DNA of 64,000 nt, from the NCBI GenBank assembly GCA_040756905.1, contig JBFLYD010000043.1:62001-126000 (forward strand), written 5' to 3'. The notes beneath the pieces were generated by a model. It ran no database searches. It saw only the letters and a program-made list of their open reading frames with translations, and had not been told where the DNA came from. Both the position numbers and the translations under genes were made by a program. Origin of the DNA: Acidobacteriota bacterium. Lineage in GTDB: Bacteria > Acidobacteriota > Aminicenantia > JBFLYD01. Below are positions 10,901 to 55,727 of the stretch, in pieces; the stretch's first letter is position 1; every line of letters starts with the position of its first letter.

Positions 10901-11269
10901 TATAGTGAGCAGGAAGGGTGGCGGAGAAAACCGTCACGAATGCGTAGCGGGCATGGTTTCCTCCGACATTCTGGAATATCAGAAGTTCGGAGGAAGAGCG
11001 AAACATGAGTGCCGAGCTGGAGTTTTCCAAGTGTGCTGTCCCATAAATCTTTTCCCAGAGAAAGGAGTTCTTTGACAGCACACTGAAGGGGTATGGGGAA
11101 GATGCCTTCCCTATGTCTGGGGGGTGCTCAGCGAAGCGTCTAAGGAGATCTTTCTCCCATAGGGAAAGTGTTGTGACACAAATAAATAACAAAGACAATT
11201 TTGAGTGTCACAACACTTTGATAGGGAAAATACAGCGTGTTTTCGAAGTCACCCTTGCTGATCACTATA
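10901..11269 (+). repeat. Structured repeat, shell module (copy 1) with a core inside
   Basis: The ends pair: TATAGTGAGCAGGAAGGGTG (10901-10920) against 11250-11269 with two mismatches. The left arm contains a hairpin TTCCTCCGA (10958-10966)/TCGGAGGAA (10987-10995). The sequence 10911-11030 and the tail 11221-11255 are shared with the shell copies at 29183-29630 and 45781-46207. The core module occupies 11031-11219. A 10-nt direct repeat TCCTGAGCGA lies outside both ends (10859-10868 and 11291-11300) and might be a target duplication. This fills most of the gap 10834-11335; no protein is likely here. Confidence 0.85.
11031..11219 (+). repeat. Structured repeat, core module (copy 1)
   Basis: Four hairpins in order: GTGTGCTGTC (11031-11040)/GACAGCACAC (11074-11083); ATGGGGAAG (11093-11101)/CTTCCCTAT (11106-11114); GGAGA (11144-11148)/TCTCC (11153-11157); and a perfect 15-bp stem AAAGTGTTGTGACAC (11165-11179)/11205-11219. 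The stretch GTGCTCAGCGAAGCGTCTAA between hairpins 2 and 3 is conserved in the copies at 38268 and 45853 and shortened at 55538. Arms differ between copies but remain complementary. Confidence 0.88.
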
Positions 11270-13495: not shown

Positions 13496-13512
13496 TTCTA
13501 TTGTTACTAAAG

Positions 13513-13652
13513 CAAACGCATTATATAAATGTAAGGTAACTCTTTAGAGCCCACCCGGACCTTGCCCTGAACTTGTTTCATGGGTTGATTCAGGGGTTGC
13601 TTGATGCAAGGCTAAAGCCTTGCCCTACATGTAACATTATTTATTGCATTTG
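13513..13652 (+). repeat. Small interspersed repeat (copy 1 of the CAAACGCAT family)
   Basis: A 140-nt element bounded by CAAACGCATT (13513-13522) and an imperfect inverse at about 13643-13652. Inside are TCTTTAGAGCC, GGGGTTGCTTGATGCAAGG and the hairpin GCAAGGCTAAAGCCTTGC followed by CCTACATGTAACA. The same order is found in reverse orientation at 29411-29530. It occupies most of the 329-nt gap before the prenyl synthase gene; the rest of that gap (13653-13824) shows nothing recognisable. Confidence 0.75.
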
Positions 13653-13824
13653 TATTAAGTTAAGGAAAATAGAGGGTTTTCGCTGATTTGTTTTTGAAAC
13701 AATAAGTTTCTGGATATATCCTCTTTTATTTGATAGTTCCTTTATTTTCATTTCTCTCTTTGTGGTTTTTGTGAAACAAATTGATAAAAATGCTCCTTTA
13801 TGATAAATTTTATAATCGATAGAA

Positions 13825-29182: not shown

Positions 29183-29630
29183 CAAGTAAAGTTTTGTGGG
29201 GTAAGAAGTTAACTAATGTATTTATGGGCAGCAGGGGTGGCGGAGAAACCGAAGGTTCCTGAAAACCGTCACGAATGCGAAGCGGGCATGGTTTCCTCCC
29301 CATTTTAATTGGGGAGGAAGAGCGAAGCATGAGTGCTCCCGCACTAACTGTATTCATTCCAAAAAAATTAAGTGATGGGAGTAGAGATATTATGAATTCC
29401 TTAATTTATAGCAAACGCATAAAATATTGTTACATGTAGGGCAAGGCTAAAGCCTTGCATTAAGCAACCCCCGAATCAAGTTCGGGGCAGGCTCTAAAGG
29501 GTTGCCCTACAATTTATTCAATGCGTTTGTATTAGGTAATAATAAGTTAGTGCGGGACTGGGGAAAATACAGCGTGTTTTTGAAGTCACCCCTGCTGCCC
29601 AAATTTTTTACCACTACAAAACTTTACTTG
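29183..29630 (+). repeat. Structured repeat, shell module (copy 2), with an alternative insert
   Basis: The ends pair twice: CAAGTAAAGTTTTGT (29183-29197)/29616-29630 and GGGCAGCAGGGGTG (29226-29239)/29587-29600, both perfect. The left arm has the same GGCGGAGAAACCG...GGGCATGG sequence as the other shells and the hairpin TTCCTCCCCA (29293-29302)/TGGGGAGGAA (29310-29319). The tail GGGGAAAATACAGCGTG is also shared. No core module is present; instead an insert is bounded by TCCCGCACTAACT (29337-29349) and its perfect complement (29545-29557). Fills most of the gap 29138-29646. Confidence 0.85.
29411..29530 (-). repeat. Small interspersed repeat (copy 2), nested in shell copy 2
   Basis: CAAACGCAT (29412-29420) and ATGCGTTTG (29521-29529) bound a 120-nt element with hairpins GCAAGGCT (29441-29448)/AGCCTTGC (29451-29458) and CCCCGAA (29469-29475)/TTCGGGG (29481-29487). 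Its reverse complement matches 13513-13652 through most of its length. It lies inside the insert that replaces the core in the shell copy. Confidence 0.8.
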
Positions 29631-29646
29631 TTTCCCCACAGATCAA

Positions 29647-35638: not shown

Positions 35639-37703
<2,065 letters not shown>

Positions 37704-37705
37704 TA

Positions 37706-38461
37706 TTAAATCTCCTTTAAATCTTCCAAGACTTTGGTAATTATTTTCTCTTGCTGATCTTTATCCAGTGTTTTTTTCATTTTTTCTTCTGCCAGAGCTA
37801 TTGAAAGCTGAGAACCATATTCTTTTAGCTCATCCATTGCTTTCTTTGCATGGGTTTCAATTTCCTTCTTAACAGATCTCAGGATTTTCTCTCTTTCTAC
37901 CTCGGCTTCCTTTAATAATTTTTTCTTCTCCTCTATTCCTTCCTCCTCTGCCTTCTTCTTCATCCCTTTTATCTCTTCTCTTATTCTCTCAAGTCTCCTT
38001 TCAATTGATCTTAATCTTTCCTCTGCTTCTTTTTTGAGATTTTCTGAGCTTTCGATTCTTTCTTTTATTTTATCCCCTCTACCTTTCAAAAAATTTATCA
38101 ATGATTTTCTAATTAAAAGGAATATGAAACCAAAAAGGATAACAAAATTAAAAGTTTTTCCAAGAAAATCAAACCATGCTGATCTGTGGGCTTCACCTTC
38201 GCTCATTCCGAAAATATCTATGGACGAGCACACTGAAAAGAAAATAAATAAAACTAATACAAGCCTGGTGTGCTGTCCCGTAAACATCTTCATAAACAAA
38301 AAATCTTTCCTACAGCACACTGAAGGGGCATGGGGAAGAGGCTTCCCCATGTCTGGGGGGTGCTCAGCGAAGCGTCTAAGGGGGGCTTGCCCCCATAGGG
38401 AAAGTGTCTTGTCGCATAAAAATAAAAAAAGATATTTAAGTGACAAGACACTCGCTTTCAT
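37706..38461 (-). CDS. atpF: ATP synthase b subunit, with a repeat-encoded N-terminal insertion
   Basis: This 251-codon frame encodes a stator b subunit. After the insertion come the hydrophobic stretch RLVLVLFIFFSVC, then SEGEAHRSAWFDFLGKTFNF, the membrane helix and a long charged coiled coil. The first ATG (38461) overlaps the stop of the upstream b' gene as ATGA. Codons 4-65 (38267-38452) are the core module of the interspersed repeat, in antisense and without a stop. Deleting them would give MKARLVLVLF as a clean signal-like start and a protein of 189 residues. The insertion may be translated or bypassed from an internal ATG (for example the one for MKMFTGQHT). Signal-like N-termini occur in b subunits of related phyla. 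Confidence 0.88.
   Translation of the reverse strand: MKASVLSLKYLFLFLCDKTLSLWGQAPLRRFAEHPPDMGKPLPHAPSVCCRKDFLFMKMFTGQHTRLVLVLFIFFSVCSSIDIFGMSEGEAHRSAWFDFLGKTFNFVILFGFIFLLIRKSLINFLKGRGDKIKERIESSENLKKEAEERLRSIERRLERIREEIKGMKKKAEEEGIEEKKKLLKEAEVEREKILRSVKKEIETHAKKAMDELKEYGSQLSIALAEEKMKKTLDKDQQEKIITKVLEDLKEI
38268..38452 (+). repeat. Structured repeat, core module (copy 2), inside atpF
   Basis: Hairpins: GTGTGCTGT (38268-38276)/ACAGCACAC (38312-38320); CATGGGGAAG (38329-38338)/CTTCCCCATG (38342-38351); GGGGGC (38381-38386)/GCCCCC (38389-38394); AGTGTCTTGTCGC (38403-38415)/GTGACAAGACACT (38440-38452), the last with one G-U wobble. There is no shell here. Compared with copy 1, arms of hairpins 3 and 4 have changed on both sides. 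Confidence 0.88.
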
Positions 38462-38877
38462 ATTTTTAAAAAACTCTCCACTATCATTTCTGAAATCTCA
38501 TCGGCTTCCTTTTCTAACTTTTTTATAGCCTCTCTTTTTTGATTATCTATTTTTTTTAATTCCTCTTTCAGCATTTTCTCCGATAAAGCTTTTGCCTCAT
38601 TTATTATTCTCTCAATTTCAGTCTGGGTTTTGTTTCTAATATTTTCCTTAATCTCTGAAGCTTCAATTCTTGCCTGGCTCAGTTTATCATTTAAAAACGA
38701 TAATTTTTCCTCATAAATAGAAACTATTTCAGAAACCTTTTTTTCATTCTTAGAAATTAGACTCTCCCTGCCCTCTTTTATTTTCGAAACAGAATTGAAG
38801 TAAACTTTTTGCATGAAAAAGGTAAGAATGCCTATTATCAATGCAATAGCGAACAGCGACAGATCTAAAGAAATCAT
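38458..38877 (-). CDS. ATP synthase b' subunit
   Basis: This second b-type stator subunit is 139 residues from the ATG at 38877. I prefer this start over the TTG at 38919 because the protein then begins MISLDLSLFAIALIIGILTF, the usual b/b' membrane helix, and because TTGACT at 38914-38919 reads as a -35 box. A long Lys/Glu coiled coil follows (about 35-139). Organisms with b and b' pair them as a heterodimer. It is the first gene of the operon and overlaps atpF by 4 nt. Genes for subunits a and c are not in front of it. Confidence 0.88.
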   Translation of the reverse strand: MISLDLSLFAIALIIGILTFFMQKVYFNSVSKIKEGRESLISKNEKKVSEIVSIYEEKLSFLNDKLSQARIEASEIKENIRNKTQTEIERIINEAKALSEKMLKEELKKIDNQKREAIKKLEKEADEISEMIVESFLKI

Positions 38878-38890
38878 AAAACCATTTAAT

Positions 38891-38919
38891 TTTTTAGCAT
38901 TTTTGCACTCTAAAGTCAA
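38891..38919 (-). promoter_or_regulatory. Promoter of the ATP synthase gene series
   Basis: On the minus strand TTGACT (38914-38919) is separated by 17 nt from TAAAAA (38891-38896), which is preceded by TGC as in extended -10 elements. The ATG of b' lies 13 nt further down, so the leader would be very short. The spacing and the -35 match are good and the -10 is weak; the same TTGACx-17-TAAAAA layout occurs at 18916. Confidence 0.5.
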
Positions 38920-45746: not shown

Positions 45747-45780
45747 TCATTAAAATAAAACGATGCTTTTTTATGAAAAT

Positions 45781-46207
45781 AAGTAAAGTTTTGTAGTAGT
45801 CAATAATTAGAGCTGGAAGAGTGACCCTAAAACATGCTGTATTTTCCCCATCAAAGTGTTGTGACACTCAAAATTGTCTTTGTTATTTATTTGTGTCACA
45901 ACACTTTCCCTATGGGGGCAAGCCCTCCTTAGACGCTTCGCTGAGCACCCCCCCAGACATGGGGAAGACACCTTCCCCATACCCCTTCAGTGTGCTGTCA
46001 AAGAACTCCTTTCTCTGGGAAAAGATTTATGGGACAGCACACTTGGAAAATTACAGCTCGGCACTCATGCGTCGCTCTTCTCCCGAAAATGCACGAGAGA
46101 AACCATGCCCGCTACGCATTCGTCACGGTTTTCAGGAACCTTCGGTTTCTTTGCCACCCTTCCAGCTCATAAAAATGTTAAGTTGATTTATATTACCACA
46201 AAACTTT
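45781..46207 (-). repeat. Structured repeat, shell module (copy 3) with a core inside
   Basis: The element is inverted relative to copies 1 and 2. The outer ends AAAGTTTTGT (45785-45794)/ACAAAACTTT (46198-46207) pair, and GAGCTGGAAGAGTG (45810-45823) pairs with CACCCTTCCAGCTC (46155-46168) with one wobble. The arm hairpin CGAGAGAA (46094-46101) faces TTCTCCCG (46078-46085), different in sequence from copies 1 and 2 but paired. It fills the gap 45747-46236; no gene is likely here. Confidence 0.85.
45853..46042 (-). repeat. Structured repeat, core module (copy 3)
   Basis: In reverse, the hairpins are GACAGCACAC (46033-46042)/GTGTGCTGTC (45980-45989) and a perfect 15-bp stem AAAGTGTTGTGACAC (45853-45867)/45893-45907, with ATGGGGAAG/CTTCCCCAT and GGGC/GCCC stems between. 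The H4 stem is the same as in copy 1 and different from copies at 38268 and 55538. Confidence 0.88.
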
Positions 46208-47913: not shown

Positions 47914-49352
47914 AAATGGTGAAGAAAAAAATCCTAATTGTTGATGATGAAGAAAACATAAGGAAAAGCTTAAGTATGATACTCGAATATGAAGGATATG
48001 AATGCATCGAAGCTGAATCAGCCTTATCTTCATATAGATTATTAGAAGAAGGTCCGGATTTAATCCTTCTGGATATAAAAATGCCGGGCATCAATGGAAT
48101 GGAAATTCTTCAGGAAATAAAAAAAAGAAAGCCCCTTACAGAAGTCATTATGATATCCGGTCATGGAACTATATCCACTGCAGTAGAAGCAACAAAATTA
48201 GGGGCTTTTGATTTTCTTGAAAAACCCCTCTCAAGAGAAAGGGTTTTACTCTCAATTAGAAATGCCTTAGAAAAGAATAAACTTCGAGAAGAAAATATAC
48301 TGTTGAAAAAGAAAACAGAAAAAAAATATGAGCTAATAGGTGAATCGACATCAATAAAAGAATTGAGAGAGCAGATTTTAAAGGTTGCCCGGACAGATGC
48401 AACTGTACTGATTATGGGAGAAAGCGGAACAGGAAAAGAGTTGATAGCAAGAGAGATTCACATATTAAGTCTAAGGTCATCCTTTCCGTTTATACAGGTA
48501 AATTGTGCAGCAATTCCTGAAGAACTAATCGAATCAGAACTATTTGGCCATGAAAAAGGAGCGTTCACTGGAGCAACCGACAAAAAAATTGGAAAGTTCG
48601 AACTTGCCCATAAGGGAACGATATTTCTTGATGAAATAGGAGATATGAGCCTGAGAACCCAGTCAAAAGTGTTAAGAGTTCTGGAAGAAGGAGAAGTGCA
48701 GAGGGTGGGCTCATCAAAAATCATAAAGGTCGATGTCAGAATTTTAGCTGCTACAAACAAAAATTTGAAAGATGAAATAAAAAAAGGAACCTTCAGAGAA
48801 GACCTCTACTTTCGCCTTAGTGTTGTTCCAATCGTTTCAGCTCCTCTCCGAGATAAAAAAGAGGACATACCAATTCTCATAAATTATTTTTCTGAAACTT
48901 TCTCAGAGGAAAATAATTTTAAGATGAAAAAATTCTCCGATGAAGCAATAAAATTTTTGATGAGATACCCATGGAAAGGAAATGTGAGAGAATTGAAAAA
49001 CCTTGTTGAAAGACTTATTATAATGACTGAAAAAGAAATTATCGATGCGGATGACCTCCCTAATTATATAAAAGGTGAAACATCAGTTTTAGTTCCAGAA
49101 ATAAGCAGGACTAAAACACTAAAAGAGTTTAAAGAAGAAGCTGAAAAACTATTTATTGTTGAAAAATTAAAAGAGAATAAGTGGAACTTATCAAAAACTG
49201 CGAGAAAAATAAAAACACCGAGGTCAAACCTCTACAAAAAAATTGAACAATATGGTATAAAATATAAGGCTGGAGCAGGCGATGGAATCGCTTCCCCAAA
49301 ATACTATGGGGAGGAGGAAAGTCCGAACTCCACAGGGCAGGATGCTGGGTAA
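47898..49352 (+). CDS. Sigma-54-dependent response regulator (NtrC family), C-terminus read into rnpB
   Basis: This 484-codon frame has a receiver domain with Asp59 in [10 protein letters not shown], an AAA+ domain with Walker A GESGTGKE at 174-181, the sigma-54 contact loop GAFTGA at 221-226 and [11 protein letters not shown], and a Fis-type HTH ([20 protein letters not shown]). The natural HTH end is near IEQYGIKYK (about residue 456). The last 28 codons lie inside rnpB (49268-49352), and the stop TAA is at 49350-49352. Another start at 47916 ([12 protein letters not shown]) is possible. A partner kinase is not adjacent. Confidence 0.9.
49231..49260 (+). promoter_or_regulatory. Possible rnpB promoter inside the sigma-54 regulator gene
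   Basis: TCTACA (49231-49236) matches the -35 consensus at four positions, and 18 nt later TATAAA (49255-49260) matches the -10 at five. The first RNase P base (49268) is 8 nt from the -10 end, as expected for a start site. The promoter would lie inside the HTH coding region. Confidence 0.45.
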
Positions 49353-49705
49353 TACCCAGGGTTCCGAGAAATCGGAATACGGAAAGTGCCACAGAAAACA
49401 TACCGCTCTGTTCTTTATAAAGAACAGGGTAAGGGTGAAAAGGCGAGGTAAGAGCTCACCGCTCTGATGGTGACATCAGAGGCATGGCAAACCCCATCTG
49501 GAGCAAGGCCAAATAGACCCTGCTTTCCATTCTCCTTTTGCTAAAGGAAAATGGATAAGAATTGCCCGTTCGAATCTTTGATTTATCAGAGAGGCAGGGT
49601 GGGTAGGCTGCTAAGATTCCAGGAGTAATCCTGGAACAAGAGAAATGATTCCATTCTCCGATTTATTCGGAGAAAACAGAATTCGGCTTATGCCCTGCTC
49701 CAGCC
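49268..49705 (+). ncRNA. rnpB: RNase P RNA (bacterial class A)
   Basis: This 438-nt catalytic RNA trims tRNA 5' leaders. GGCTGGAGCAGG at 49268 pairs with CCTGCTCCAGCC ending at 49705 (P1/P2 ends). The universal GAGGAAAGTCC is at 49314-49324, and the 3' partner ACAGAATTCGGCTTAT is at about 49676-49691. GCAAACCCCATCTGGAGCAA and GGCCAAATAGACC in the middle, and GTGGGTAGGCTGC, are also typical. Length is within class A range. Its 5' 85 nt overlap the frame of the sigma-54 regulator. It converges with phoU after 64 nt. Confidence 0.96.
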
Positions 49706-55413: not shown

Positions 55414-55537
55414 ATTTTAGTAAAAAAATTCAGATGTAGAGATAGTCTAAAAACTATATTTTTCTTGAAAACTGAATATAATAAAATCAATGAGTTAGAC
55501 GTAGTAGGGAGGTTTAAAAATTAGGTTTTTAGACCTA

Positions 55538-55715
55538 GCGTGCTGTCCCTTACATATCTTTACAGGCAAAAAATCTCTAAGACAGCACACTGAAGGGGTA
55601 TGGAGAAGTGGTCTTCCCCAGCCTGGGGAGCGAAGCGTCTAAGGAGATCTTTCTCCCATAGAGAAAGTGTCATGTTACAATAATATAACGAAAGGTATTT
55701 AAGTGACATGACACT
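55538..55715 (+). repeat. Structured repeat, core module (copy 4), without shell
   Basis: GCGTGCTGTC (55538-55547)/GACAGCACAC (55581-55590), GGAGA (55643-55647)/TCTCC (55652-55656), and AGTGTCATGTTAC (55666-55678)/GTGACATGACACT (55703-55715) with one wobble. The second hairpin is decayed, and the GTGCTCA part between hairpins 2 and 3 is deleted. It lies in the 402-nt gap between phoR and the porin gene. Confidence 0.85.
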
Positions 55716-55727
55716 ATCTCTATGTCT

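Follow-up and report, generated by a model that had tools for sequence, protein, structure and literature searches.

The window, a stretch of 64,000 nucleotides from the draft genome (2.56 Mb, 69 contigs) of an uncultured bacterium, contains an ATP synthase operon in which the gene of the b subunit, atpF, carries a palindromic repeat within its coding sequence. The nearest named AtpG is of Acidobacteriota type (50% identity). The operon order b′, atpF, atpH, atpA is intact on either side of the insert, and the features of the region are the following:

37134..37703, minus strand: atpH (delta/OSCP), downstream of atpF; Pfam OSCP 5e-40
37706..38461, minus strand: atpF, ATP synthase b subunit; open reading frame of 251 aa, 62 codons of which are inserted in frame
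38267..38452, minus strand: palindromic mobile element in atpF; 186 nt, in the sense of atpF, residues 4-65
38291..38293, minus strand: possible internal ATG at codon 57, within the 3′ hairpin; weak SD TAGGAAA
38459..38461, minus strand: native ATG of atpF, in an ATGA overlap with the stop of the b′ gene; SD GGAGAG
38458..38919, minus strand: b′-type ATP synthase subunit gene, upstream of atpF; Pfam ATP-synt_B 7e-12
Signal-like segment of the atpF product: LVLVLFIFFSVCSS

An earlier note on this DNA had claimed that a repeat lies in frame near the start of atpF. This is borne out by the profile of the repeat family, which matches atpF at 38452-38267 on the minus strand over 186 nt (nhmmer, E 3e-60), and by the ORF 38461-37706, which is open throughout. 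The note's assignment of codons 4-65 to the repeat is exact, and these codons are free of stops: in coding order the gene encodes MKA, then 62 repeat codons (38452-38267, 186 nt) and then RLVLVLFIFF, with the frame kept. As the note had described, removal of 38267-38452 restores the start in the same frame (ATG AAA GCG AGG CTT GTA, M K A R L V), with AGG CTT GTA opening the strongly hydrophobic segment of atpF. The upstream b′ gene, the real start of which is probably the ATG of MISLDLSLF, retains its ATGA overlap with atpF, as the note had stated. The remainder of the protein is recognizable as a b subunit (Pfam ATP-synt_B on residues 101-228, E 8.8e-20), and AtpF is the sole match of its kind in its own genome outside the repeat.

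The earlier note had also pointed to a comparison with insert-free alleles of atpF, and these were found in 27 relatives of the same class. Their AtpF proteins have a start of the form M-basic-hydrophobic without the insert and measure 183-204 aa, against 251 aa here, the lengths being approximate because the start codons were picked by rule. The nearest relatives compared stand at the level of the class. When 141 further genomes of the class were searched for the element, nothing was returned beyond a trivial 33-nt match, and a core 22-mer of the element had no match in a pattern scan of genome_contigs.

That the repeat is real, as the note had supposed, is evident from its abundance. A 216-nt query recovers 50 BLAST matches in the bacterium's own genome, the best other copy being 91% identical to the one in atpF. 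The profile search, with a profile built from 39 copies, recovers at least 57 near-full-length copies among the loci searched, and in addition partial and longer ones. The copies begin and end with TAGTGTC...CACACTA. The dinucleotide TA is found on both sides of 34 of 55 full copies and on the left of 44 of the 55, and the element may transpose at TA; the copy in atpF is flanked by GA/CA instead of TA/TA. The terminal inverted repeats, TAGTGTCGTGTCAC and TAGTGTGCTGTCCC, match by eye at 11 of 14 positions. Several copies are chained head to tail, with a junction common to the neighbours. With a length below about 200 nt and many copies, the element is non-autonomous and too short for a transposase gene.

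The atpF copy folds into five successive hairpins with a minimum free energy of -67.9 kcal/mol (z -7.4). The terminal ones are:

38403..38452, minus strand: 5′ terminal hairpin, AGTGTCTTGTC...GACAAGACACT (helix 1)
38267..38321, minus strand: 3′ terminal hairpin, AGTGTGCTGT...ACAGCACACC (helix 5)

Across 47 copies, 90.9% of the cells in the five hairpins are paired, and eight pairs show compensation, one of them in 19 sequences. In helix 1, pairing is kept in 94.6% of cells and compensatory changes occur at 3 pairs, with up to 19 sequences at one; in helix 5 the values are 87% and 4 pairs. Private to the atpF copy is a compensated T-A pair in the 5′ stem, where other copies have G-C or A-T. Pairing and compensation over the 47 copies exceed those in shuffled and slid controls, the structure having an advantage over the slid controls in that it was derived from one of the 47 sequences. 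Several extra hairpins occur in the middle of two long versions (L086:2083-2452 and L088:2016-2384; about 365 nt), and the peptide frame is still open in both.

Outside atpF, the profile matches the window at three other places:

11030..11217, minus strand: element copy nested in a second repeat
45855..46043, plus strand: element copy nested in the same second repeat
55537..55716, minus strand: element copy with a shorter middle hairpin

The second repeat, of about 330-420 nt, occupies window positions 10926-11260, 29214-29633 and 45777-46180; the 186-nt element is nested in two of its copies, and another palindrome (29397-29530) lies at the same place in the third. A third hairpin-rich repeat (AAACGCATAAAATATTGTTACAT...) occurs at 13500-13667 and 29397-29530 of the window and at loci L021, L024, L078, L082 and L083. 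Flanks like those of the third repeat also enclose the 186-nt element at five other places.

The insertion in atpF is one of several in which the element is carried in frame by a protein gene. The opposite strand of the element, which is not the one read in atpF, encodes the peptide LVCCPINIFANKQFLIKHTEGVWGRGFPMSGGCSAKRLRRSFSHRESVVSQKNNERYLSDTTL, always in one frame. This frame (LVCCPINIF...YLSDTTL) recurs in six host proteins, to which atpF is the exception. Three copies lie in the middle of long open frames: of 956 aa at L018 (628 codons before the element, 265 after), of 1032 aa at L019 (546 before, 423 after) and of 864 aa at L031 (292 before, 509 after). At L025:2041-2829, a pseudopilin gene, the element sits within a type IV prepilin leader, where 63 aa separate MKQ from KGFTLIEV, ahead of the expected cleavage site. 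A BadF/BadG-type ATPase (L012) has the element peptide at its N-terminus, and an HlyD-type lipoprotein (L022) is preceded by it; in these two genes the element may lie before the native start or replace it. L019, L098 and L099 have truncated or long versions at their signal peptides or close to them, and another such version lies at the end of a contig in a TPR protein (L096). In an RdgB-like ORF (L014:6249-6433) and a zinc-ribbon ORF (L077:2050-2247) the open frame starts inside the element, and neither seems to have kept a start codon of its own.

Two of the mid-gene insertions have clean empty sites in relatives. The glycosidase-like protein of L031 has orthologues in two genomes of the comparison (G002, where it is a single 774-aa ORF, and G007) that are 62-68% identical and are missing exactly the 62 residues. 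Relatives of the L019 protein do not have residues ~543-605, nor the long-variant insert near its N-terminus. The relatives of the L018 protein are too distant around the insert for an exact empty site to be visible.

We used a check of frame keeping that does not depend on openness, considering full copies with open runs of at least 80 codons on both sides on one strand. Eight copies qualify. Three of them interrupt one gene each, and in every one of the three the frame is kept without a stop. At L090 and L017, which were inspected, the element lies between two different genes, and at L022, L085 and L012 (+) the ORFs suggest adjacent genes or a frame that is spurious. Among 40 other copies, 45% have no stop in the frame that atpF uses, so an open frame by itself does not demonstrate that the inserted peptide is under selection. 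A codon-position test of the antisense peptide in non-genic copies found no wobble excess (p 0.76), so nothing indicates that the peptide is under purifying selection. Genic and other copies were also compared for frame openness by a Fisher test, which was discarded: it is partly circular, because the genic copies were first found by their openness, and it misreads L022, which has internal indels.

We consider it probable that atpF contains a MITE-like mobile palindrome that is tolerated in frame and read through from the native ATG. A lineage-specific, non-autonomous palindromic element (186 nt net) would have multiplied in the host genome, and one copy would have landed between atpF codons 3 and 4, at the boundary of the start and the hydrophobic signal segment. 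Copies would be tolerated inside protein genes when the reading frame is kept, and the atpF insert would have been retained because its net addition of 62 codons kept the frame. The ribosome would most likely start at the native, translationally coupled ATG and read through the insert, and the cytoplasmic N-terminal lead of the b subunit before the signal segment would be 62 residues longer. The extended lead would then be cleaved off together with the signal peptide or stay on the protein as a harmless extension; by analogy with the signal-like starts of the relatives' proteins, the insert may be removed together with the signal peptide. Most likely the insert does no more than lengthen the signal peptide by a long stretch that is dispensable. 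Residues 1-15, at the start of the insert, are rather hydrophobic (KD 1.45), which makes its effect on membrane insertion uncertain.

The earlier note had named three fates of the insert: translation, removal with the signal peptide and bypass by an internal start. The comparison of the two candidate start codons favours translation from the native start and leaves the bypass the weaker proposal. In the bypass, the element would supply the ATG of codon 57 (MKMFTGQHTRLVLVLF...), the working AtpF would be a protein of about 195 aa, and the insert would for the most part be leader RNA. Such a product fits the 183-204 aa of the relatives, a TAGGAAA stands upstream of this ATG, and the open frames of the RdgB-like and zinc-ribbon ORFs likewise begin in the element. 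However, the Shine-Dalgarno interaction at codon 57 is weaker and its spacing longer (-4.2 kcal/mol, 12 nt) than at the native ATG (-6.7 kcal/mol, 10 nt), and codon 57 lies in a paired part of the 3′ hairpin, with an unpaired probability of 0.24 against 0.62. Together with the ATGA coupling to the b′ gene, which the native start retains, the stronger SD and the less paired ATG suggest that the native start is probably used. Moreover, an internal start needs no open frame across the whole insert, yet the frame is open. We therefore regard initiation at codon 57 as a possible but rather unlikely alternative.

Excision of the insert from the atpF mRNA, with the structured element self-splicing or being processed out, would agree with the conserved RNA-type structure with its compensatory changes and with the sharp ends of the element within a coding sequence. 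Compensatory changes are, however, also expected of hairpins kept at the DNA level, the atpF insert has no Rfam intron or ribozyme match, and the in-gene copies are stop-free and keep the frame, which a spliced intron would not need; we find excision very improbable. A misjoining of the repeat into atpF is hardly credible, even in a draft metagenome assembly of 69 contigs in which some copies are at contig ends: the junction is in frame within an operon that is intact on both sides, the atpF copy has compensated changes of its own and no other copy is more than 91% like it, and unrelated genes whose orthologues have clean empty sites show the same pattern.

The likeness to Rickettsia palindromic elements (RPEs) that the earlier note had drawn is supported by the in-frame copies in the middle of three long ORFs, in the prepilin leader and at further N-termini, and by the clean empty sites. 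The palindromic elements of Rickettsia and Wolbachia are short hairpin repeats with many copies, which are both intergenic and in frame in conserved protein genes and encode a recurrent peptide (PMC2229807, PMC10969869, PMC3767692). Our element shares with RPEs the hairpins, the many copies, the recurrent peptide and the in-frame insertion in conserved genes with orthologues lacking the insert. It differs in length (186 nt against 105-146 bp), in its build of five successive hairpins instead of one long stem-loop, in the TA at both ends of most copies, in its ~365-nt variants, in the use of the opposite strand by atpF and in its host, an Acidobacteriota-like bacterium of another phylum than the Rickettsiales. 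We therefore call it RPE-like: it works like an RPE, as an in-frame coding MITE, and is likened to this group by its behaviour and its hairpins and not by sequence, with no claim of membership. RPEs have been reported in the RNase P RNA of Rickettsia. The class A RNase P RNA of the window (49272-49705) has an extra ~50-70 nt around P12, which are not the 186-nt element.

Other families resemble the element in part. Correia/NEMIS (in its 107-bp form), ERIC and YPAL/RU-2 are shorter than 200 nt, with ORFs fused in frame to other ORFs and, in several families, TA ends; in one case a YPAL copy supplies part of a predicted signal peptide (PMC2229807). Correia, ERIC and YPAL mostly form a single stem-loop by end-to-end pairing, have other sequences and other hosts and do not have mid-gene insertion in conserved genes as their main habit. 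RUP of Streptococcus pneumoniae is a TA-bounded, non-autonomous MITE with many copies, thought to be moved by IS630-Spn1 (PMC2229807). Our element likewise is non-autonomous, has many copies and is mostly bounded by TA, but RUP is intergenic and IS630-linked, whereas a search of the bacterium's own genome for two transposase families, DDE_3 and Y1_Tnp, recovered no match to DDE_3 (IS630). It did recover four Y1_Tnp (IS200/RAYT-type) genes (L190-L193; G000 C64, C45, C35 and C43:44212), one of them with an internal stop, which are possible but unproven movers of the element.

More speculatively, and in our opinion doubtfully, the hairpins and the coding frame may both have been shaped for carriage in host proteins, with cleaved leaders (Sec, prepilin) as safe landing places that leave the mature proteins unchanged. 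In-frame coding palindromes have so far been treated mainly as a peculiarity of the Rickettsiales. The present family is a separate one from another phylum, has clean empty-site pairs and has hit the stator of the ATP synthase and several leader peptides. The survival of selfish repeats inside proteins would thus become testable outside obligate intracellular bacteria.
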